Positions 22,285 to 30,014 of a DNA stretch of 64,000 bases are shown one piece after another. A program made the position numbers and the translations under genes. Each line of letters opens with the position of its first letter. The stretch's first letter is position 1. A model generated the notes under the pieces. The model was not told the DNA's origin and searched no databases. It saw only the letters and a program-made list of their open reading frames with translations. The DNA lies in NCBI RefSeq assembly GCF_024400215.1, contig NZ_CP053748.1, positions 5,518,001-5,582,000 on the forward strand. The letters run 5' to 3'. Source of the DNA: Massilia sp. erpn. Its GTDB lineage: Bacteria > Pseudomonadota > Gammaproteobacteria > Burkholderiales > Burkholderiaceae_D.

Positions 22285-23244
22285 TCAGCGCGGAATCGTG
22301 TAGTTCACTGGAATGAACTGGTAGCCTTTGCCGTTGCCACGCAGATGGCCCACGCCCGGAAACGGCAGGTGGGCCGCACCGATCAGATAACCCTGTTTGG
22401 CCGCGGCGGCAAAAGCAGCCTTGCGTTCGGCCAGCGCGGCTTTGCTGTCGGTATCGAAGGCGATCACCACGTCCGGTTCGGCGATCTGCACCGCCTGCAC
22501 GTGCAGCAGATCGCCGATCAGGGCCAGCTTCTGCCCCTTGCTCTCCACCACATAGGTCGTATGGCCTGGCGTGTGGCCGAAGCTGGACGCGGCTTTCACG
22601 CCCGGCACCAGATCGGTATTGCCTTCAAACGGCAGCAGCTTGCCCGCATTCGCATAAGGCGCCAGCACTTTCATCGCGCCGGCAAAGAAACCTTTGGCCT
22701 CGGCCGGCGCTTTCTCCATCTGCACCTTGCTCAGCCAGAAGTCGGCATCGCGCTTGTCCATGCGCACCACGGCGTTCGGGAAGGCCGGCTGCTCGGCCGC
22801 CATCACGCCGCCCACATGGTCGGGATGCAGGTGGGTGATGTAGATCTCGTCGACCTGCTCCGGCTTGTAGCCGGCTGCTTTCAGATTCTCCAGCATCTTG
22901 CCCAGCGTCGGGCCAAACAGGGCGCCGGCGCCGGTATCGACCAGCACCAGCTTGCTGCCGGTATTGATCAGGAAGCTGTTGAACGAGGTTTCCAGCGGCG
23001 AGTGCAGGAAGGACTTGGCCAACGTTTTTTCAGTCTTGCCCGGTTTGTCCTTCAACAGCTGGTGCACCGGCAGATCGACGGTGCCGTCGCTCAGCACCGT
23101 CACCTCGAAGTCGCCCAGCATCATGCGGTAATAGCCGGGCGCCTGGGTCTTGACCATGGGTGCGGCGGCGAAAGCGGTACTGGCGGCAAGTGCCAAGGCG
23201 CCCAGCACGGCGGCGCGGCTGGAGGGGAACTTGAAAGCGGTCAT
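22285..23244 (-). CDS. Secreted MBL-fold metallo-hydrolase
   Basis: From ATG 23244 (AAGGAA upstream) the protein has 319 residues with a signal peptide ending STAFA. The metallo-beta-lactamase fold metal motif THLHPDHVGG is near residue 128, with GHTPGHTTYV near residue 219 and a C-terminal GAAHLPFPGVGHL. The group includes lactonases and MBL-fold proteins of unknown use; a true carbapenemase is unlikely. It stands alone. Confidence 0.88.
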   Translation of the reverse strand: MTAFKFPSSRAAVLGALALAASTAFAAAPMVKTQAPGYYRMMLGDFEVTVLSDGTVDLPVHQLLKDKPGKTEKTLAKSFLHSPLETSFNSFLINTGSKLVLVDTGAGALFGPTLGKMLENLKAAGYKPEQVDEIYITHLHPDHVGGVMAAEQPAFPNAVVRMDKRDADFWLSKVQMEKAPAEAKGFFAGAMKVLAPYANAGKLLPFEGNTDLVPGVKAASSFGHTPGHTTYVVESKGQKLALIGDLLHVQAVQIAEPDVVIAFDTDSKAALAERKAAFAAAAKQGYLIGAAHLPFPGVGHLRGNGKGYQFIPVNYTIPR

Positions 23245-23317: not shown

Positions 23318-24679
23318 TCAGAAATTCATCGGCACGCGTATCGACAGCGAAACATCGGGCGTGTCGCGCGTCAACCCGGCGCCGACCGAGATATTCACCG
23401 AGCGTTTTTCGTTGAAGCGGTAGGTAAAGCCCATCAGCAGCGTACCCAGCTGGGTGCGCACCGACCCCGGCACCGCCTGCCCATTCTGCCTGGTACGCGC
23501 CACCGACTGGTGGTCGTAGCCCAGGCTGAGCGAGGCCTTTTCGTTGAGCGCCAGGCCGATGCCGAAATTCGCGCCGATCACGGCGCCCGGCGCCACCGTG
23601 CCCAGTTCCTCACTCTCGCCATTGAGAATCCGGCGCGTCACGTTCTTGCGCTTGAAGTTGTGCAGATAACTGACACTGCCAAAGAAGATGGCCGGGTCCG
23701 AGGGAAAGAGCCAGGTCAGGCTGGGCTGGACGGCGTAGAAGCCGGAGCCGGTGGGCAGGGTCAGCGGCAGGCCGGTGCCGCTGGCACTCTGCCCCACGCA
23801 GCGCTGGCTGCAATCGGTCACGACTTCGAAAGGATCGCGCCCGGTGCGGCTCTTGATGCGCAAGCCGGCCACATAAAACGGCTTGTCCGCGCCGCCGTCG
23901 TTGAGCTGGCGGCGCAACGCCAGCTCCACATCGCCGATGGCGCGGCCGCTGGTTTCAAACACGCGTTCAACCGAGGAGCCGGTGAAGATTTCGCGGCTGA
24001 CGGTGGAATCGGAACGGTAGACATACGGCACGCGCATTTCAATCTCGGTGCGGCTATTGATGCCGTAGCGTCCCGTCAGCGCGGCGGTGAAGGTGTTGCG
24101 CTTGATCTCGCGCACATCGACCAGGCCAATCAGGATGGCGGGAATAATCGTATAGCCGACCAGGGCCACGCGGTTGCTGGACGAATAGCCGAACTGCACC
24201 GAAGGTTCCAGCACATAATGGCCTTTCGGCGTCAACACGCCCGGCGCCTCGAAAATGGGCGCCACCTCGGGCGGACGCGAATCGCGTTCCGGCGCCTTGC
24301 CCACCGCGCCCCCTTCCTGCGCCACCTCGCGCCGCGCATTGGGCGCTGCCGCCGTCGCCGGCACCGGGCCGCCTTGAACGGGAGCCTGTGCCGGCGCCGC
24401 CTGCCCGGCCGAACCGGCTTGCAGATACGGGGCACCCGCGCCGCGCCGGCTTTCCAGTTCGGCCGCCGACACTGCCGGCCGCGCAGCTTGCAGCTGCTCC
24501 ATCTCCGTCTTCAAGGCCTTCAGCAAGGCCCGCTGTTCGGCCAGCTGCTGCTTGACGGCTGCCAGTTCCGCCGCCAGGTCGGTCATGCTGCGTTCTTCTT
24601 GCTGGCCCTGGGCCAGGGCACTGCACAACAGGAGCGAGAGGCCGGCCGATCCGGCGCGCAGGGTGTGGGCAAGCTGCAT
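23318..24679 (-). CDS. FapF-like outer-membrane export barrel with coiled-coil plug
   Basis: The 453-residue protein has a signal peptide (ends ALAQG), a heptad coiled coil at residues 32-68 (LAAELAAVKQQLAEQRALLK), a Pro/Ala/Gln-rich linker to about residue 135, then a beta-barrel with alternating strands ending SLSIRVPMNF with terminal Phe. This plan (coiled coil, plug linker, barrel) is that of FapF, the outer-membrane pore of the Fap amyloid system. AAGGAGGAAGC precedes ATG. It is the last gene of the operon, as FapF is. Sequence identity to FapF cannot be judged here. Confidence 0.75.
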   Translation of the reverse strand: MQLAHTLRAGSAGLSLLLCSALAQGQQEERSMTDLAAELAAVKQQLAEQRALLKALKTEMEQLQAARPAVSAAELESRRGAGAPYLQAGSAGQAAPAQAPVQGGPVPATAAAPNARREVAQEGGAVGKAPERDSRPPEVAPIFEAPGVLTPKGHYVLEPSVQFGYSSSNRVALVGYTIIPAILIGLVDVREIKRNTFTAALTGRYGINSRTEIEMRVPYVYRSDSTVSREIFTGSSVERVFETSGRAIGDVELALRRQLNDGGADKPFYVAGLRIKSRTGRDPFEVVTDCSQRCVGQSASGTGLPLTLPTGSGFYAVQPSLTWLFPSDPAIFFGSVSYLHNFKRKNVTRRILNGESEELGTVAPGAVIGANFGIGLALNEKASLSLGYDHQSVARTRQNGQAVPGSVRTQLGTLLMGFTYRFNEKRSVNISVGAGLTRDTPDVSLSIRVPMNF

Positions 24680-24706
24680 GCTTCCTCCTTCCGAAGAGTG
24701 TGGGAC

Positions 24707-25195
24707 TTAGCGCGGCGTCAGCGCGCCAGCCAGCGCCTGCCGCATGCTGCTTTCCAAATTAATGCCTTTCAGGATTTCCAGGCTATTGACGGCGGTGTTG
24801 ATGGTGGTCTGGCTGCGTATCAGCTGGTCATTGGCGCTGTTCTGAATCAGCAACGCCGAGACGGCGGCCGAGCTCATGGCCGCCGGCGCGATATTGCCGT
24901 CGCCGTTCTGTACCAACAAAGGATTCAAGGCGCTGCGCGCCATCTCCGCTTCGGCGGCGCTCATGCGCGCCACGTCGGCGATATTGAACTGGCTGCTCGA
25001 CACCACGGCGCCATTGATCGACACCATGCGCTCGATGCCGAGCGAGACCACCAGGCCGCTGCCATTATCGAAGCCGCCGCGCGCCGCGTCGAGCGCGCTG
25101 TCGGGGAGCGCCACCCAGTCGCCATCCAGGCCATCGGCACAGGCCAGCCACGTCACGCCGCACAGCAAGGCGGCGCTCCAGCGAAGAATGCGCAT
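24707..25195 (-). CDS. Small secreted protein with RGG motif (FapE position)
   Basis: The 162-residue protein starts at 25195 (AAGGAG upstream) with a signal peptide ending ACADG. The motif LPDSALDAARGG (residues 30-41) is followed by a strand-rich segment (SLGIERMVSINGAVVSSSQFNI) and Q/N-rich pieces (LLVQNGDGN, LLIQNSAND). It lies between the C39 peptidase and the barrel, the place of FapE in Pseudomonas. I infer an amyloid or minor subunit processed after RGG; no homologue is recognised with certainty. Confidence 0.7.
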   Translation of the reverse strand: MRILRWSAALLCGVTWLACADGLDGDWVALPDSALDAARGGFDNGSGLVVSLGIERMVSINGAVVSSSQFNIADVARMSAAEAEMARSALNPLLVQNGDGNIAPAAMSSAAVSALLIQNSANDQLIRSQTTINTAVNSLEILKGINLESSMRQALAGALTPR

Positions 25196-25205
25196 CACTC
25201 GCTCC

Positions 25206-25892
25206 TTAGAATTCGCCTCTTCCCAGCTTGGGCAACGTGATGCGGGCCAGACCATCGCGCTCGATGACGTCAGCCGGCATGGCCTGCGGCGCCACGCGCC
25301 AATCGGCCAGCTCATTGAAGCGCGGCTTGCCCGGCCGGTCGTGGATCACAAACAGCAGATGGTTCTGCCATACGGCTTCGAAAGCGGCGCGGCCCATGGC
25401 ACGCGTGCCGCCGGCAGGATCGCCCAGCAGCACACGTTCGCCCTGCAGGCCTTTGACCACGACGAAATGATGGTAACCCTTCTCCGCAATCAGCACAATC
25501 GCGGGAAAGCCCGCCTTGTGCAGCTTTTCCAACGGCAGTTCAAAGCCATCGGCGATAAAGCCACGCGCGGCCAGGAAGCGCTTCATATCCAGCAGGGAGA
25601 AACCCTCGCGCCGGATCTTTTCCTGGTCACCGTTCTGGAACATCTCCTGGAAGGCTTGCTGCTCGCTCACCGGATAATCGTAGTGGTAGCTTAACAACGT
25701 CGCCACGGCCGCCGAGCCGCAGCTGAAGTCGAACTGCTGGCGCACGGTGGCGCGGTAGCGCAGTTCCTTGATGCTGGTGACCTTGAGGTGGAAAGGTGCG
25801 CCGCCGACGCTTTGCACGTCGGCGGCCAAACCCGATGCCGAACAAGCCAGCAGCAGGATGCTACCCACACAGCGATGGAGCTGCGTTTTCAT
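25206..25892 (-). CDS. Periplasmic C39 family cysteine peptidase (FapD-like)
   Basis: The 228-residue protein has a signal peptide and a C39 fold: catalytic Cys58 in QFDFSCGSAAVATLL (oxyanion Gln at 52/53), His141 or 142 in EKGYHHFVVVKG, Asp158 in LLGDPAGG. C39 peptidases cut after double glycine. FapD of the Fap system is the closest known role. Its ATG overlaps the upstream gene's TGA (ATGA, 25889-25892), and ten bases separate it from the next gene. Unlike bacteriocin exporters there is no ABC transporter part, so it must act in the periplasm. Confidence 0.88.
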   Translation of the reverse strand: MKTQLHRCVGSILLLACSASGLAADVQSVGGAPFHLKVTSIKELRYRATVRQQFDFSCGSAAVATLLSYHYDYPVSEQQAFQEMFQNGDQEKIRREGFSLLDMKRFLAARGFIADGFELPLEKLHKAGFPAIVLIAEKGYHHFVVVKGLQGERVLLGDPAGGTRAMGRAAFEAVWQNHLLFVIHDRPGKPRFNELADWRVAPQAMPADVIERDGLARITLPKLGRGEF

Positions 25893-26350
25893 TTGAGCTG
25901 CACATTCACGATGGTGGCGTTCTGGATCAGCACATTGGCGCCGGAATTCTGGATCACCATCGGCAGCCCGGACGCATTTGCGAACGAGCCTTCGGTGATG
26001 GTATTCGATCCGGTCAGGACCTGCACCGCCTTGTTATTGCTGACCGCTCCACTCAGTTTCATCTCGCTCCAGGGCGTATCGCTGCCGCCGCGTAGCTGCG
26101 ACAGCTGTTCTTCCCCGAGCGGCGCCGGCAGGATGCCGCTTTCATCCCGCGCTAACCGCACGCCACTTCCATTCAGCGCGGCGGCGGCGAAGGCCGCCAC
26201 CACCGGCAAAATGGGCTTGTCTGCCGCTTCGGCAGGTGCCGGCACTACCGCCGCCGGCTCGCAAAGGGGGCTGACCGCCTGCTGCGCCTGGAGATCCAGG
26301 CTCAGCAGGCAAAGCGTCAGGGCCAGTCCCTGCATGGTATCGATCCGCAT
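25889..26350 (-). CDS. Small secreted Q/N-rich protein with RGG motif (FapA/B-like place)
   Basis: The 153-residue protein starts at ATG 26350 (GGAGG six bases before). It has a signal peptide (LTLCLLSLDLQAQ), a Pro/Ala-rich pro-region, the motif PLGEEQLSQLRGG (residues 77-89), and a 64-residue tail rich in Asn, Gln, Val and Ile (VSNNKAVQVLTGSNTI, IQNSGANVLIQNATIVNVQ) with strand-like alternation typical of amyloid subunits. It overlaps the peptidase gene by four bases. I infer a nucleator or subunit matured after RGG. Confidence 0.7.
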   Translation of the reverse strand: MRIDTMQGLALTLCLLSLDLQAQQAVSPLCEPAAVVPAPAEAADKPILPVVAAFAAAALNGSGVRLARDESGILPAPLGEEQLSQLRGGSDTPWSEMKLSGAVSNNKAVQVLTGSNTITEGSFANASGLPMVIQNSGANVLIQNATIVNVQLK

Positions 26351-26434
26351 CACAGCCTCCAAGGCCTTGTGAGCAAAGCTGTTTTCCGCATGCCGGCGGC
26401 GTGGCGTGAACTTGCCGGCGCCGCCGGTCCTGGC

Positions 26435-28393
26435 TTATTTACCCACTTGCAAATTAGCCTGCACGTTCACGCTTTGCTGCACCAGCGAGGAGAAGCCGTT
26501 GTTCTGGCTCACCACCATGATGCCCGCAGCCGACTGGCCGACAGTGTTCATGGTGTTCGACATATTGAAGTCGCCGGCATTCACGGAGATCGTGCCTCCC
26601 GCGCCGCCTGCGCCACCCATGCCATTGCCTGCTGCGGCATTGCCCGCCGTGGCCGTGCCGCCAGCGCCGCCGGCGCCGCCGTTGTTGCCGCCACCGCCAG
26701 CACCGCCAGCACCGCCGCTATTGCCGCCGCCACCGGCGCCGCCAGCACCGCCGCTATTGCCGCCGCCGCCGGCACCGCCCGAACCACCGGTATTGCTGCC
26801 GCCGGCCGCGCCGTTGCCGCCGTTGCCGGCCATGGAGTTACCGTTGGTGGCGCTGCCCGAATTCGCTGCGCCGCCGTTCGAGCTGCCGCCTGCCGCACCG
26901 GAACCTGCGGTATTGGAAGCTGCTCCGCTGCTGCCGCCGCCACCGCCGCTGGCGCCTGCCGCACCGGCACCACCTGAGCTGCTGCCGCTGCCGCCGCCGG
27001 CGCCTGCGCCGCCGCTGCCTGCCGTTGCTGCCGCGCCTGCGCCGCCGCTATTGCTGGCCGCTGCGCCGCCACCGCCTGCGCCGGTTGTATTGGTGCCGCC
27101 GGCCGCTCCCGCACCGCCGGTATTCGAGGCACTGGCGCCCGCGCCGCCGCCGCCAGCCGTACCGCCAGCCGCGCCGGCGCCGCCACCACCCGAGGTATTC
27201 GGACCAGAGGTTGCGGAATTGGTGCTGGCGCTGGCTGCGCCGCCCGTACCCGTGCCACCGCTGCCGGTCGCGTTCTGGTCATTGCCTACGAAGGGATTGG
27301 CCGGATCGCTGGTCGTGCCGATATTGGCGTTCACGCCCAGGCCTGCGCCGACTTTCGCTGCACCGCCGCTGGCCGTCTGGGTGGCGATGCCGTCGCCGCC
27401 GCTGGCTTTGCCGCCGGATGCGCCGCTGCCGCCATAGCCGCCAGCGCCGCCCATGCCACCGGCGCCGCCGGAAGCCTTGCCGGTGCTGCCGCCGCTGCCG
27501 CCGTTCGAGCCGTCGGCATAGCCGGAAGCGCCACCGCTGCCGCCTTTGGCGTTACCGGTCATGCCGCCGTCGCCGCCAGCGGCCTTGCCGCCCGCGCCGC
27601 CATAACCGCCGGCGCCACCGGTGCTGCCGCCAGCTTTGCCGCCGGCGCCGCCGGCGCCGCCCGCGCCGCCCATGCCGCCATCGCCGGTGCTGGCATTTTT
27701 CGCCGCACCGCCGTCGCCGCCGCTGCCTGCCTTGGCCATGCCGCCGCTGGCGTCACCGGTCGATGCGCTGCCGTTTTTGGAATTGCCGCCGGAAGCGCCA
27801 TCGCCGCCGTTCGCACCTTTGGCCCAGGCGCCGTCGCCGCCACTGCCGCCTTTGGCCAGGGCGCCGTCGCCGCCGCTGCCGCCTTTGGCCGATGCGCCAT
27901 CGCCACCGCTGCCGCCTTTGGCCGATGCGCCATCGCCGCCGCTGCCGCCTTTGGCATTGCCGCCCGTGGCATCGCCACCGTAGCCGCCCTTGGCGCTGCC
28001 GCCATTGGCATCGCCTTTATTGGTGGCGATATTGCCGATCTGCGAAATGGTGTTGCCGCTGACCGAGCCACTCAGCTTGCTGATGGCGCTGGCCGAGGAC
28101 TTGTTGAAGGAATTGGTCATGTTCGAAGTGGCCGTGGCGCCGTTATTGGCCGCCGCGGCAGCGTCGGCGGAAGCCTTGGCCGTACCATCGCTGTTGTTGT
28201 TGTTCTTGTTGTGGGTGCTGGAATCGGTACTCGAATCGTTATCGTGGTTGGTACTGCTATCCTGAATGATTTTGGCCTTCGCTGCCGCATTGATGCCGTC
28301 ACCCGACTGATCGACCGCCGGGTCCGCAGCTTGTGCAAATGCGCCGGTACTGAACAGCAGCGCAATGGCAGTAGCAAGTATGCTTTTTTTCAT
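26435..28393 (-). CDS. Large Gly/Ala/Ser-rich secreted repeat protein (candidate amyloid/matrix subunit)
   Basis: From ATG 28393 the protein has 652 residues and a signal peptide (MKKSILATAIALLFSTGAFA). After an Asn/Ser/Asp-rich region (23-130), residues 130-600 are GGX-type repeats, including five 11-residue copies of KGGSGGDGAxA (148-202) and three 12-residue GGAGGAGGGGNS units (about 543-578). The last 50 residues are non-repetitive (SVNAGDFNMSN, then GIMVVSQNNGFSSLVQQSV) and resemble Fap subunit ends. I see no Cys, Arg or Glu. It is the first gene after a sigma-54 promoter. I infer an exported matrix or amyloid protein. Confidence 0.75.
   Translation of the reverse strand: MKKSILATAIALLFSTGAFAQAADPAVDQSGDGINAAAKAKIIQDSSTNHDNDSSTDSSTHNKNNNNSDGTAKASADAAAAANNGATATSNMTNSFNKSSASAISKLSGSVSGNTISQIGNIATNKGDANGGSAKGGYGGDATGGNAKGGSGGDGASAKGGSGGDGASAKGGSGGDGALAKGGSGGDGAWAKGANGGDGASGGNSKNGSASTGDASGGMAKAGSGGDGGAAKNASTGDGGMGGAGGAGGAGGKAGGSTGGAGGYGGAGGKAAGGDGGMTGNAKGGSGGASGYADGSNGGSGGSTGKASGGAGGMGGAGGYGGSGASGGKASGGDGIATQTASGGAAKVGAGLGVNANIGTTSDPANPFVGNDQNATGSGGTGTGGAASASTNSATSGPNTSGGGGAGAAGGTAGGGGAGASASNTGGAGAAGGTNTTGAGGGGAAASNSGGAGAAATAGSGGAGAGGGSGSSSGGAGAAGASGGGGGSSGAASNTAGSGAAGGSSNGGAANSGSATNGNSMAGNGGNGAAGGSNTGGSGGAGGGGNSGGAGGAGGGGNSGGAGGAGGGGNNGGAGGAGGTATAGNAAAGNGMGGAGGAGGTISVNAGDFNMSNTMNTVGQSAAGIMVVSQNNGFSSLVQQSVNVQANLQVGK
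26661..26768 (-). repeat. Three 36-bp tandem repeats in the Gly-rich gene
   Basis: Three near-identical 36-bp units (26661-26696, 26697-26732, 26733-26768) encode GGAGGAGGGGN-type dodecapeptides. Recombination here would change the protein in 12-residue steps without frameshift. Confidence 0.75.
27788..27952 (-). repeat. Five 33-bp tandem repeats in the Gly-rich gene
   Basis: Five 33-bp units encode KGGSGGDGAxA with x = Ser, Ser, Leu, Trp, Ser; the last unit (27788-27820) diverges to KGANGGDGASG. Length change by slippage would keep the frame. Confidence 0.8.
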
Positions 28394-28466
28394 TTTCCGT
28401 GCCTCACCAAAGTTTGGTTGAACGAGTGTCCACCGGGAATGCTCACTCCGGGCAGCCAAGACCTAC

Positions 28467-28481
28467 GCAAGCTTGATGCCA
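28467..28481 (-). promoter_or_regulatory. Sigma-54 (-24/-12) promoter of the Fap-like operon
   Basis: On the minus strand TGGCATCAAGCTTGC matches TGGCAC-N5-TTGC with the exact GG-to-GC spacing; only the final C of the -24 box differs. It lies 74 bases before the ATG of the Gly-rich gene and downstream of the sigma-54 activator gene. Confidence 0.75.
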
Positions 28482-28573: not shown

Positions 28574-28604
28574 CAAAAAGGCAGCGGCGCCATCTGGCGC
28601 CGCT
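28574..28604 (-). terminator. Rho-independent terminator of the sigma-54 activator gene
   Basis: A 10-bp perfect stem (AGCGGCGCCA, loop of 2, TGGCGCCGCT at 28583-28604) is followed on the minus strand by GCCTTTTTGT. It lies about 50 bases after the activator stop. Confidence 0.8.
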
Positions 28605-28620
28605 GAGTTTCCCTGCCGAG

Positions 28621-28652: not shown

Positions 28653-30014
<1,362 letters not shown>

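Follow-up and report, generated by a model that had tools for sequence, protein, structure and literature searches.

The closest described relatives of the locus considered here, a five-gene operon in a 64,000-nucleotide stretch of the Massilia sp. erpn genome (hereafter the window), are the fap amyloid operons of Pseudomonas and related bacteria. In Pseudomonas the genes run in the order A-B-C-D-E-F, with C adjoining D; fapA is often deleted and FapC is variable in length (PMC3792158). Fap secretion depends on FapD and on the Cys of its active site (PMC5557850), and the target of this peptidase was called unclear in 2017 (PMC5557850) and its substrate again undetermined in a 2018 review (PMC6173800). 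The low specificity of the FapD and FapF models was already known in 2013 (PMC3792158) and fapD-fapF pairs outside Fap have been reported (PMC6173800, section 6), which means that relatives of this kind were known before. A C39 peptidase and a FapF-like channel are also found in Fil (NCBIfam pilus_FilB, FilC and FilD), and the nap island of Neisseria joins a C39 peptidase, a FapF homologue and small proteins with a GG motif (PMC11798529). Among the literature matches listed in our searches, outside which lay subscription papers and preprints, we found no description of the present operon, of the conserved gene set to which it belongs, of its subunit design or of the leader that it has in common with FapE, and no report of a proven FapD cut site.

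We confirm that the window carries five open reading frames on the minus strand, spanning 23318-28393 and separated, in order, by 84, -4, 10 and 27 bases (table 1), as the initial annotation had proposed. They encode a Gly-rich subunit, a small protein that we call smX, a C39 peptidase, a second small protein, smE, and a barrel protein; smX, smE and the label type B used below are working names coined in this analysis. All five products have a signal-peptide-like start, judged by eye. The length and secretion-type start first given for the Gly-rich protein hold: its body is made of GGX repeats, with 43% Gly across residues 131-590, and its C-terminus (583-652) is a single repeat-like stretch. 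The two small proteins had been described as secreted and rich in Q and N; the first attribute stands by their signal-like starts, but the enrichment is only modest, with N+Q at 13% in smX and 11% in smE, rising to 18% and 14% past the R-G-G motif discussed below. The proposed likeness to a Pseudomonas order C-x-D-E-F holds for D-E-F and not for C-x-D, since in Pseudomonas C adjoins D.

The coiled-coil plus barrel protein is, by sequence, a FapF homologue. Its residues 133-452 align with solved FapF (5o67) at E=1.5e-32, and the protein matches the NCBIfam FapF model NF058560 with E=2e-47 (161.9 bits, under the cut-off of 700), against 1.6e-12 for FilC. The FapF match that the initial annotation had asked for is thus present, through sequence comparison with solved chains rather than through fold comparison. 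In the alignment to solved FapF the second of the PTG motifs described in PMC5557850 is kept, while the first reads RTG. The peptidase, for its part, is a FapD homologue whose catalytic residues are intact, in line with the periplasmic C39 peptidase first proposed, its location being suggested by the signal-like start. It matches the NCBIfam FapD model NF058616 with E=3e-38 (131.3 bits, under the cut-off of 330) and FilB nearly equally (6.8e-37), is 36% identical to a canonical FapD across 168 residues, and has Q52, C58, H142 and D158 among the columns common to canonical and type B FapD. A further match, to the 'Double Glycine Motif Protease domain' of PDB 6mpz (6.8e-08), relates it to the C39 domains of ABC exporters; unlike these, it stands alone and has a signal-like start, so that cutting would be periplasmic.

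The remaining proteins were searched against the same collections with little result. The subunit and smX had no Pfam or NCBIfam match at E up to 1, and smE had no NCBIfam match at this level and three sub-threshold Pfam hits (best 0.0046). The FapE model NF058559 matched nothing in the own genome at E 0.001 and did not match smE at E 1. No FapA was recovered in the NCBIfam search or in profile-profile comparison of the locus proteins, and Pfam returned no curlin, CsgG or FadL-type match among the five; by these comparisons the operon belongs to neither the curli nor the Fil system. As a control, in a canonical locus (L074) FapA, B, C, D and E all clear their NCBIfam cut-offs. As first claimed, the subunits are not classic FapB or FapC. 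Strict Fap membership fails: there is no FapA and no three-repeat FapB or FapC, three proteins are without an NCBIfam match, and FapD and FapF fall under their cut-offs. By homology, the export parts would nevertheless work like those of Fap.

We grouped loci by gene content into canonical Fap (A), loci with smX (B) and Fil-like loci (C), leaving ungrouped L096, L097 and L100. In a FapD tree of 68 rows (A 11, B 52, C 5) the groups are separated at 100/99, 98/93 and 100/99 support, and in a FapF tree of 66 rows (A 10, B 52, C 4) at 80, 98 and 100, the latter by a quick method that warns of long branches. L094 gave no FapF, a partial FapF row of L076 was left out, and one of the two FapD copies of genome G145 is outside the tree. 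As many of the B rows are closely related to the window, their clustering alone is unsurprising; the point is the supported split of divergent B rows from A. The FapD and FapF of the locus are thus placed, on these trees, outside the canonical Fap branch and on a separate one. Moreover, G145 (L076, L101) has one type B locus in addition to two canonical Fap copies, and type B is therefore not simply a local form of A. The own genome also contains a Fil-like locus, L023 (6812-10829; C1 ~377800-381800), where a FadL-type gene and a DUF2059 gene come after a second FapD/FapF-like pair; its best NCBIfam fits are FilB, FilC and FilD, under cut-offs. Unlike the type B operon, it has a FadL-type, FilD-like gene, and we recognised neither smX nor smE nor a repeat subunit in it.

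The gene set is conserved among relatives, a further expectation of the initial annotation. Of 60 genomes in the genus, counting the own genome, 51 have FapF-family matches, weak and Fil-like ones among them. We examined 19 same-genus neighbourhoods, selected from the better FapF matches, and also the second locus of the own genome. The order smX-FapD-smE-FapF is kept in 19/19, and gene calling placed a Gly-rich subunit upstream of smX in 17/19 (four of them cut by a contig end); the subunit of L037 is intact though missed by the gene finder, and the subunit position of L030 lies beyond the contig end. A repeat-bearing subunit is thus found upstream of smX in 18/18 neighbourhoods that reach so far. 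Further afield, an smX profile (A1) built from 17 of the 32 smX rows has matches in 32 order-level genomes out of 399 and in 17 phylum-level ones out of 398 (own genome in both), a weak phylum match being uncounted (G381; 8.7e-4, within a 2677-residue frame). The 15 other phylum genomes with convincing smX, one of them (G388) from another class, all have a FapD match within ~250 bases of it. Thirty order genomes were left, of which four (L086, L087, L088 and L092) belonged to the earlier set, 20 supplied more neighbourhoods and six fell outside the examination. In 20/20, smX-FapD-smE lie on one strand with FapF nearby, and a subunit with the conserved C-terminal repeat is ahead of smX, 14 recognised by profile and six, missed by it, by eye (L115, L117, L118, L122, L123 and L125); the subunit of L113 is ~1.8 kb from smX and that of L128 is a 114-residue form. 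Subunit bodies are mostly Gly-rich, and N/S/T-rich in L118, L123, L126 and L127.

Between the window and its nearest relative (L025), the ratio of nonsynonymous to synonymous substitution rates (dN/dS) is 0.03-0.13 for the five genes and the adjoining activator. Since gene order is kept in 19/19 and 20/20 neighbourhoods and dN/dS is this low, we see the operon as more than a chance assembly. Against Massilia sp. BJB1822 (L129), subunit dN/dS is 0.22 overall, 0.26 for the body and 0.09 for the C-terminus. smX has 1562 homologues, including one of 96% identity in Massilia sp. MB5; the 120 listed carry no Pfam domain and are named 'hypothetical' or 'uncharacterized' protein. Carriers include Pseudoduganella, Massilia, Rhodoferax, Rhodanobacter, Dyella and Thauera (33 loci, their gene order checked only as far as the subunit, found in 13). 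Two unusual loci were also seen: L084 (4988-10370) has tandem subunit-smX-FapD-smE copies in which smX, FapD and smE look identical, and L100 (G129 C10 549297-549951) looks decayed, with an internal stop in the smX match and no repeat subunit recognised.

What the type B subunits have in common is their C-terminus, which corresponds to the short amyloid-like portion that the initial annotation pointed out. A model of this region matches 25/27 type B subunits, most of which went into building it, while their bodies are GGX-rich or N/S/T-rich. In the window subunit it matches 583-652 at 1.5e-31 with no second copy, this protein being among those used to build the model, and the own genome gave no other match to the subunit C-terminus at E up to 10. 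The initial annotation had overlooked a FapB-type repeat in the small middle protein. A model of mature smX matches 10/11 canonical FapB and 0/11 when these are reversed, as well as 7/27 type B subunits (0/27 reversed) and 2/32 smE (0 reversed); for FapE there is no signal, as reversed sequences matched equally (1/12 each). Profile-profile comparison agrees, with smX-FapB at P=81% (reversed 0.06%), smX-subunit C-terminus at 96% (92% in the opposite direction), smE-FapE at 91% (reversed 0.14%; the alignment is mainly of the signal, leader and first strand region) and smE-smX at 71-85%, against 2% or less for the reversed controls of these pairs, 1.3% for smX-FapC and 15% for smX-FapE. Because the subunit C-terminus is linked to FapB only via smX, the latter is the bridge from the type B subunit to the Fap repeat. 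The subunit N-terminus also matched FapC (P=85%, 23 columns), probably through the signal peptide, and this match was set aside.

Double-glycine leaders have hydrophobic residues at positions -12, -7 and -4 and glycine at -2 and -1. In smX and smE, a conserved R-G-G (L83-x3-R87-G88-G89 and L35-x3-R39-G40-G41, respectively) comes after hydrophobic residues at -12, at -7 and, in many cases, at -4; this R-G-G is invariant in 38/38 smE rows of alignment A3 (which omits P0134, of 126 aa, and the window's own protein, P0121). We wrote the leader motif after a first set of smX, smE and FapE. In that set it occurs in 29/32 smX rows, 30/32 smE and 12/12 canonical FapE, against 1.85, 3.28 and 0.99 expected from shuffled N-termini; the controls, FapB (1/11; 0.87 expected), FapC (2/11; 0.39) and type B subunits (1/26; 0.96), are at low counts. 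Used unchanged, the motif was then found in 16/16 further FapE matches (1.58 expected), 15 of which come from genomes absent from the first set, L170 being the same genome as one of the first set. The last residue of the FapE leader is R or K in 28/28 (27 distinct), and the residue ahead of its glycine is R in 26/28, H in one and T in one. FapA has the motif in 3/8 (0.64 expected), one of the three off-register; one canonical FapA (L075, 7166-7615) bears a perfect GG leader-like motif, LGDADFARVSGG, and most others a degenerate one or none. These leaders predict FapE/smE and smX as FapD substrates. In Pseudomonas, where Fap proteins were considered to be without canonical C39 sequences, GG or GA motifs of FapE had been proposed as possible cut sites, and N-terminal peptides were absent by mass spectrometry for FapE alone (PMC5557850). 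Our proposed FapE site near residue 40 fits the missing peptides of about the first 70 residues, though not the whole stretch.

In this context, we put forward that the locus probably encodes a fibre export system that resembles Fap but belongs to a branch of its own, type B. All five proteins would leave the cytoplasm by Sec, and the Gly-rich subunit would be kept unfolded in the periplasm. FapD would cleave smX and smE at the RGG leader, after which the mature proteins may traverse or open FapF and nucleate or cap the fibre. The exported subunit would then enter a surface fibre via its one C-terminal repeat, the GGX body serving as a flexible, silk-like spacer (a polyglycine-II bundle for this body is neither supported nor excluded). 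In canonical Fap, the FapD-type peptidase would likewise cut FapE at a homologous leader ending G[R/K]. The initial suggestion of a divergent functional-amyloid or matrix export system is accordingly supported, and upheld for the machinery, namely FapF, FapD, a FapE-like protein and a conserved order. We are evenly balanced on a broader proposal, that a widespread second Fap-type system exports chimeric fibres, in which silk-like GGX (or N/S/T-rich) chains are joined via one amyloid repeat and started by a leader-activated single-repeat protein, and that the RGG leaders point to FapD-family peptidases, Pseudomonas included, acting on a C39-type FapE leader that was missed as its last glycine is R or K.

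Several observations weigh against the reading of the locus as a Fap-like export system. The mature smX model matches 0/11 FapC and not the window's own subunit, and the subunit C-terminus compares with FapB or FapC at below 1% (0/11 each at threshold). The smX profile found two chance-level matches only (E 0.5) among solved structures, and AlphaFold2 models are poor, with a predicted local distance difference test score of 35 for the subunit (14 sequences) and 59 for smE (38 sequences). The last leader residue is variable, being G, R or K; most smX and smE end RGG, but some type B smX end in R (e.g., L083, L084, L089 and L101). Position -4 is loose and the exact cut position unsure. Finally, FapA-D peptides were seen throughout in Pseudomonas, without sign of processing (PMC5557850), so a processing precedent exists for FapE only, and a docking paper states that FapC is modified by FapD (PMC10638192).

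Other explanations deserve consideration. By analogy with nap, FapD and FapF could release smX and smE as signals or bacteriocin-like peptides, the Gly-rich protein being a bystander; smX past RGG has, after all, merely 65 residues. We think this unlikely, given that a repeat-bearing subunit lies upstream of smX in all same-genus neighbourhoods that reach so far (18/18) and in all order-level ones (20/20, albeit ~1.8 kb away in L113), that the repeat is common to smX and the subunit, and that mature smX is FapB-like. Compared by description, nap peptides also differ in being cationic, class II microcin-like and linked to autolysis, and a long repeat-bearing subunit is unmentioned in the available text of PMC11798529. 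The D-E-F order, the homologies and the known variation in FapC length (PMC3792158) would also suit drift of an ordinary canonical operon, in which smX would correspond to FapB and the Gly-rich protein to FapC. This appears rather improbable in view of the separation of type B FapD and FapF from their canonical counterparts (supported at 98/93 and 98, with just 80 for canonical FapF as a group), of the two canonical copies alongside a type B locus in G145, and of the missing FapA, three-repeat proteins and NCBIfam FapA/B/C/E matches. The FapB-type repeat of type B is, moreover, single and placed within a leader-bearing protein, the subunit here is GGX-rich with one C-terminal repeat, and the leaders end RGG.

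Type B subunits have the FapD leader motif in only 1/26, and the Gly-rich protein might therefore exit by another route or form a periplasmic gel, FapF exporting smX and smE only. However, FapB and FapC are likewise without the leader (1/11 and 2/11), yet exit of FapC via FapF has been reported (PMC5557850); the C-terminal repeat is also kept while subunit bodies differ, which makes this possibility quite improbable. We consider it highly improbable that the barrel serves for the uptake of hydrophobic substrates, as an importer of the COG4313 or phenol-degradation type, rather than for export. FapF is structurally related to a COG4313 channel (PMC5557850) and our barrel has a weak Pfam Phenol_MetA_deg hit (E=0.004, under cut-off), but the FapF match is far better and the barrel is paired with a C39 peptidase in all same-genus and order-level neighbourhoods examined. 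The Fap-like export system of type B thus remains our preferred reading.

Upstream of the operon lies the gene of a sigma54 activator (table 1), which is likely its regulator. A sigma54-type site scoring at least 14 of 16 was found upstream of the subunit gene in 24/24 loci scored (21 distinct upstream sequences) and in 15/277 other genes, by a score of our own weighting applied only to loci with a clean start. The activator has a match in 17/20 order-level neighbourhoods (none in L116, L118 and L123; weak and distant in L114). A sigma54 activator also adjoins most canonical Fap loci examined, and the one that was scanned (L074, 1059-2393) contains a VpsR domain; among the matches listed in a literature search on the fap operon with sigma54 or RpoN, none contained 'fap operon'. 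The terminator-like hairpin between activator and operon is one of five such sites in the region, where 8.6 are expected from shuffles. A GC-rich hairpin between the subunit and smX genes (z score -1.7) is paralleled in relatives by scores of -1.8 to -4.0 in 4/6 folded and about zero in 2/6, four stretches being only estimated; it might set an excess of subunit. Downstream, an AidB-like gene adjoins the operon in 16/19 same-genus neighbourhoods.

Table 1. Features of the type B operon and its flanks (positions in the window)
Feature	Position	Strand	Description
AidB-like gene	22285-23244		lactonase-type metallo-hydrolase (metallo-beta-lactamase fold), directly downstream of operon
FapF homologue	23318-24679	-	453 aa; coiled-coil-like N-terminal region (by eye), linker, FapF-type barrel (by homology)
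smE	24707-25195	-	162 aa; FapE-like, double-Gly leader
FapD homologue	25206-25892	-	228 aa; C39 peptidase; 4-base overlap with preceding gene (smX)
smX	25889-26350	-	153 aa; C39 double-Gly leader and one FapB-type repeat
GC-rich hairpin	26351-26434		between subunit and smX genes; no T run
Subunit gene	26435-28393	-	652 aa; signal-like start; N/S-rich N-terminus ~1-130
Sigma54 -24/-12 promoter-like site	28466-28481	-	TGGCATCAAGCTTGCG; home-made score
Terminator-like hairpin	28582-28605	-	between activator gene and operon; 10-pair stem, then CCTTTTTGTA
Sigma54 activator	28653-30014	-	PF00158, PF20161, PF02954: VpsR domain, AAA+, Fis-type helix-turn-helix; start may be 29957 instead

Although FapD is essential to Fap secretion, its substrate is left undetermined in the available texts of PMC5557850 and PMC6173800, and the perfect leaders of a homologous system render that question testable; the clear cutting signal of the small helper proteins suggests what a FapD-type protease cuts. 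The range of proteins seemingly served by a FapF-type channel would widen from Q/N-rich three-repeat amyloids to long GGX chains, which are of possible use as materials. A soil-type bacterium would thus possess a relative of the Pseudomonas amyloid-fibre machine dedicated to a different, Gly-rich fibre protein, and type B provides a candidate matrix fibre for environmental bacteria that have no above-cut-off match to the curated Fap models.

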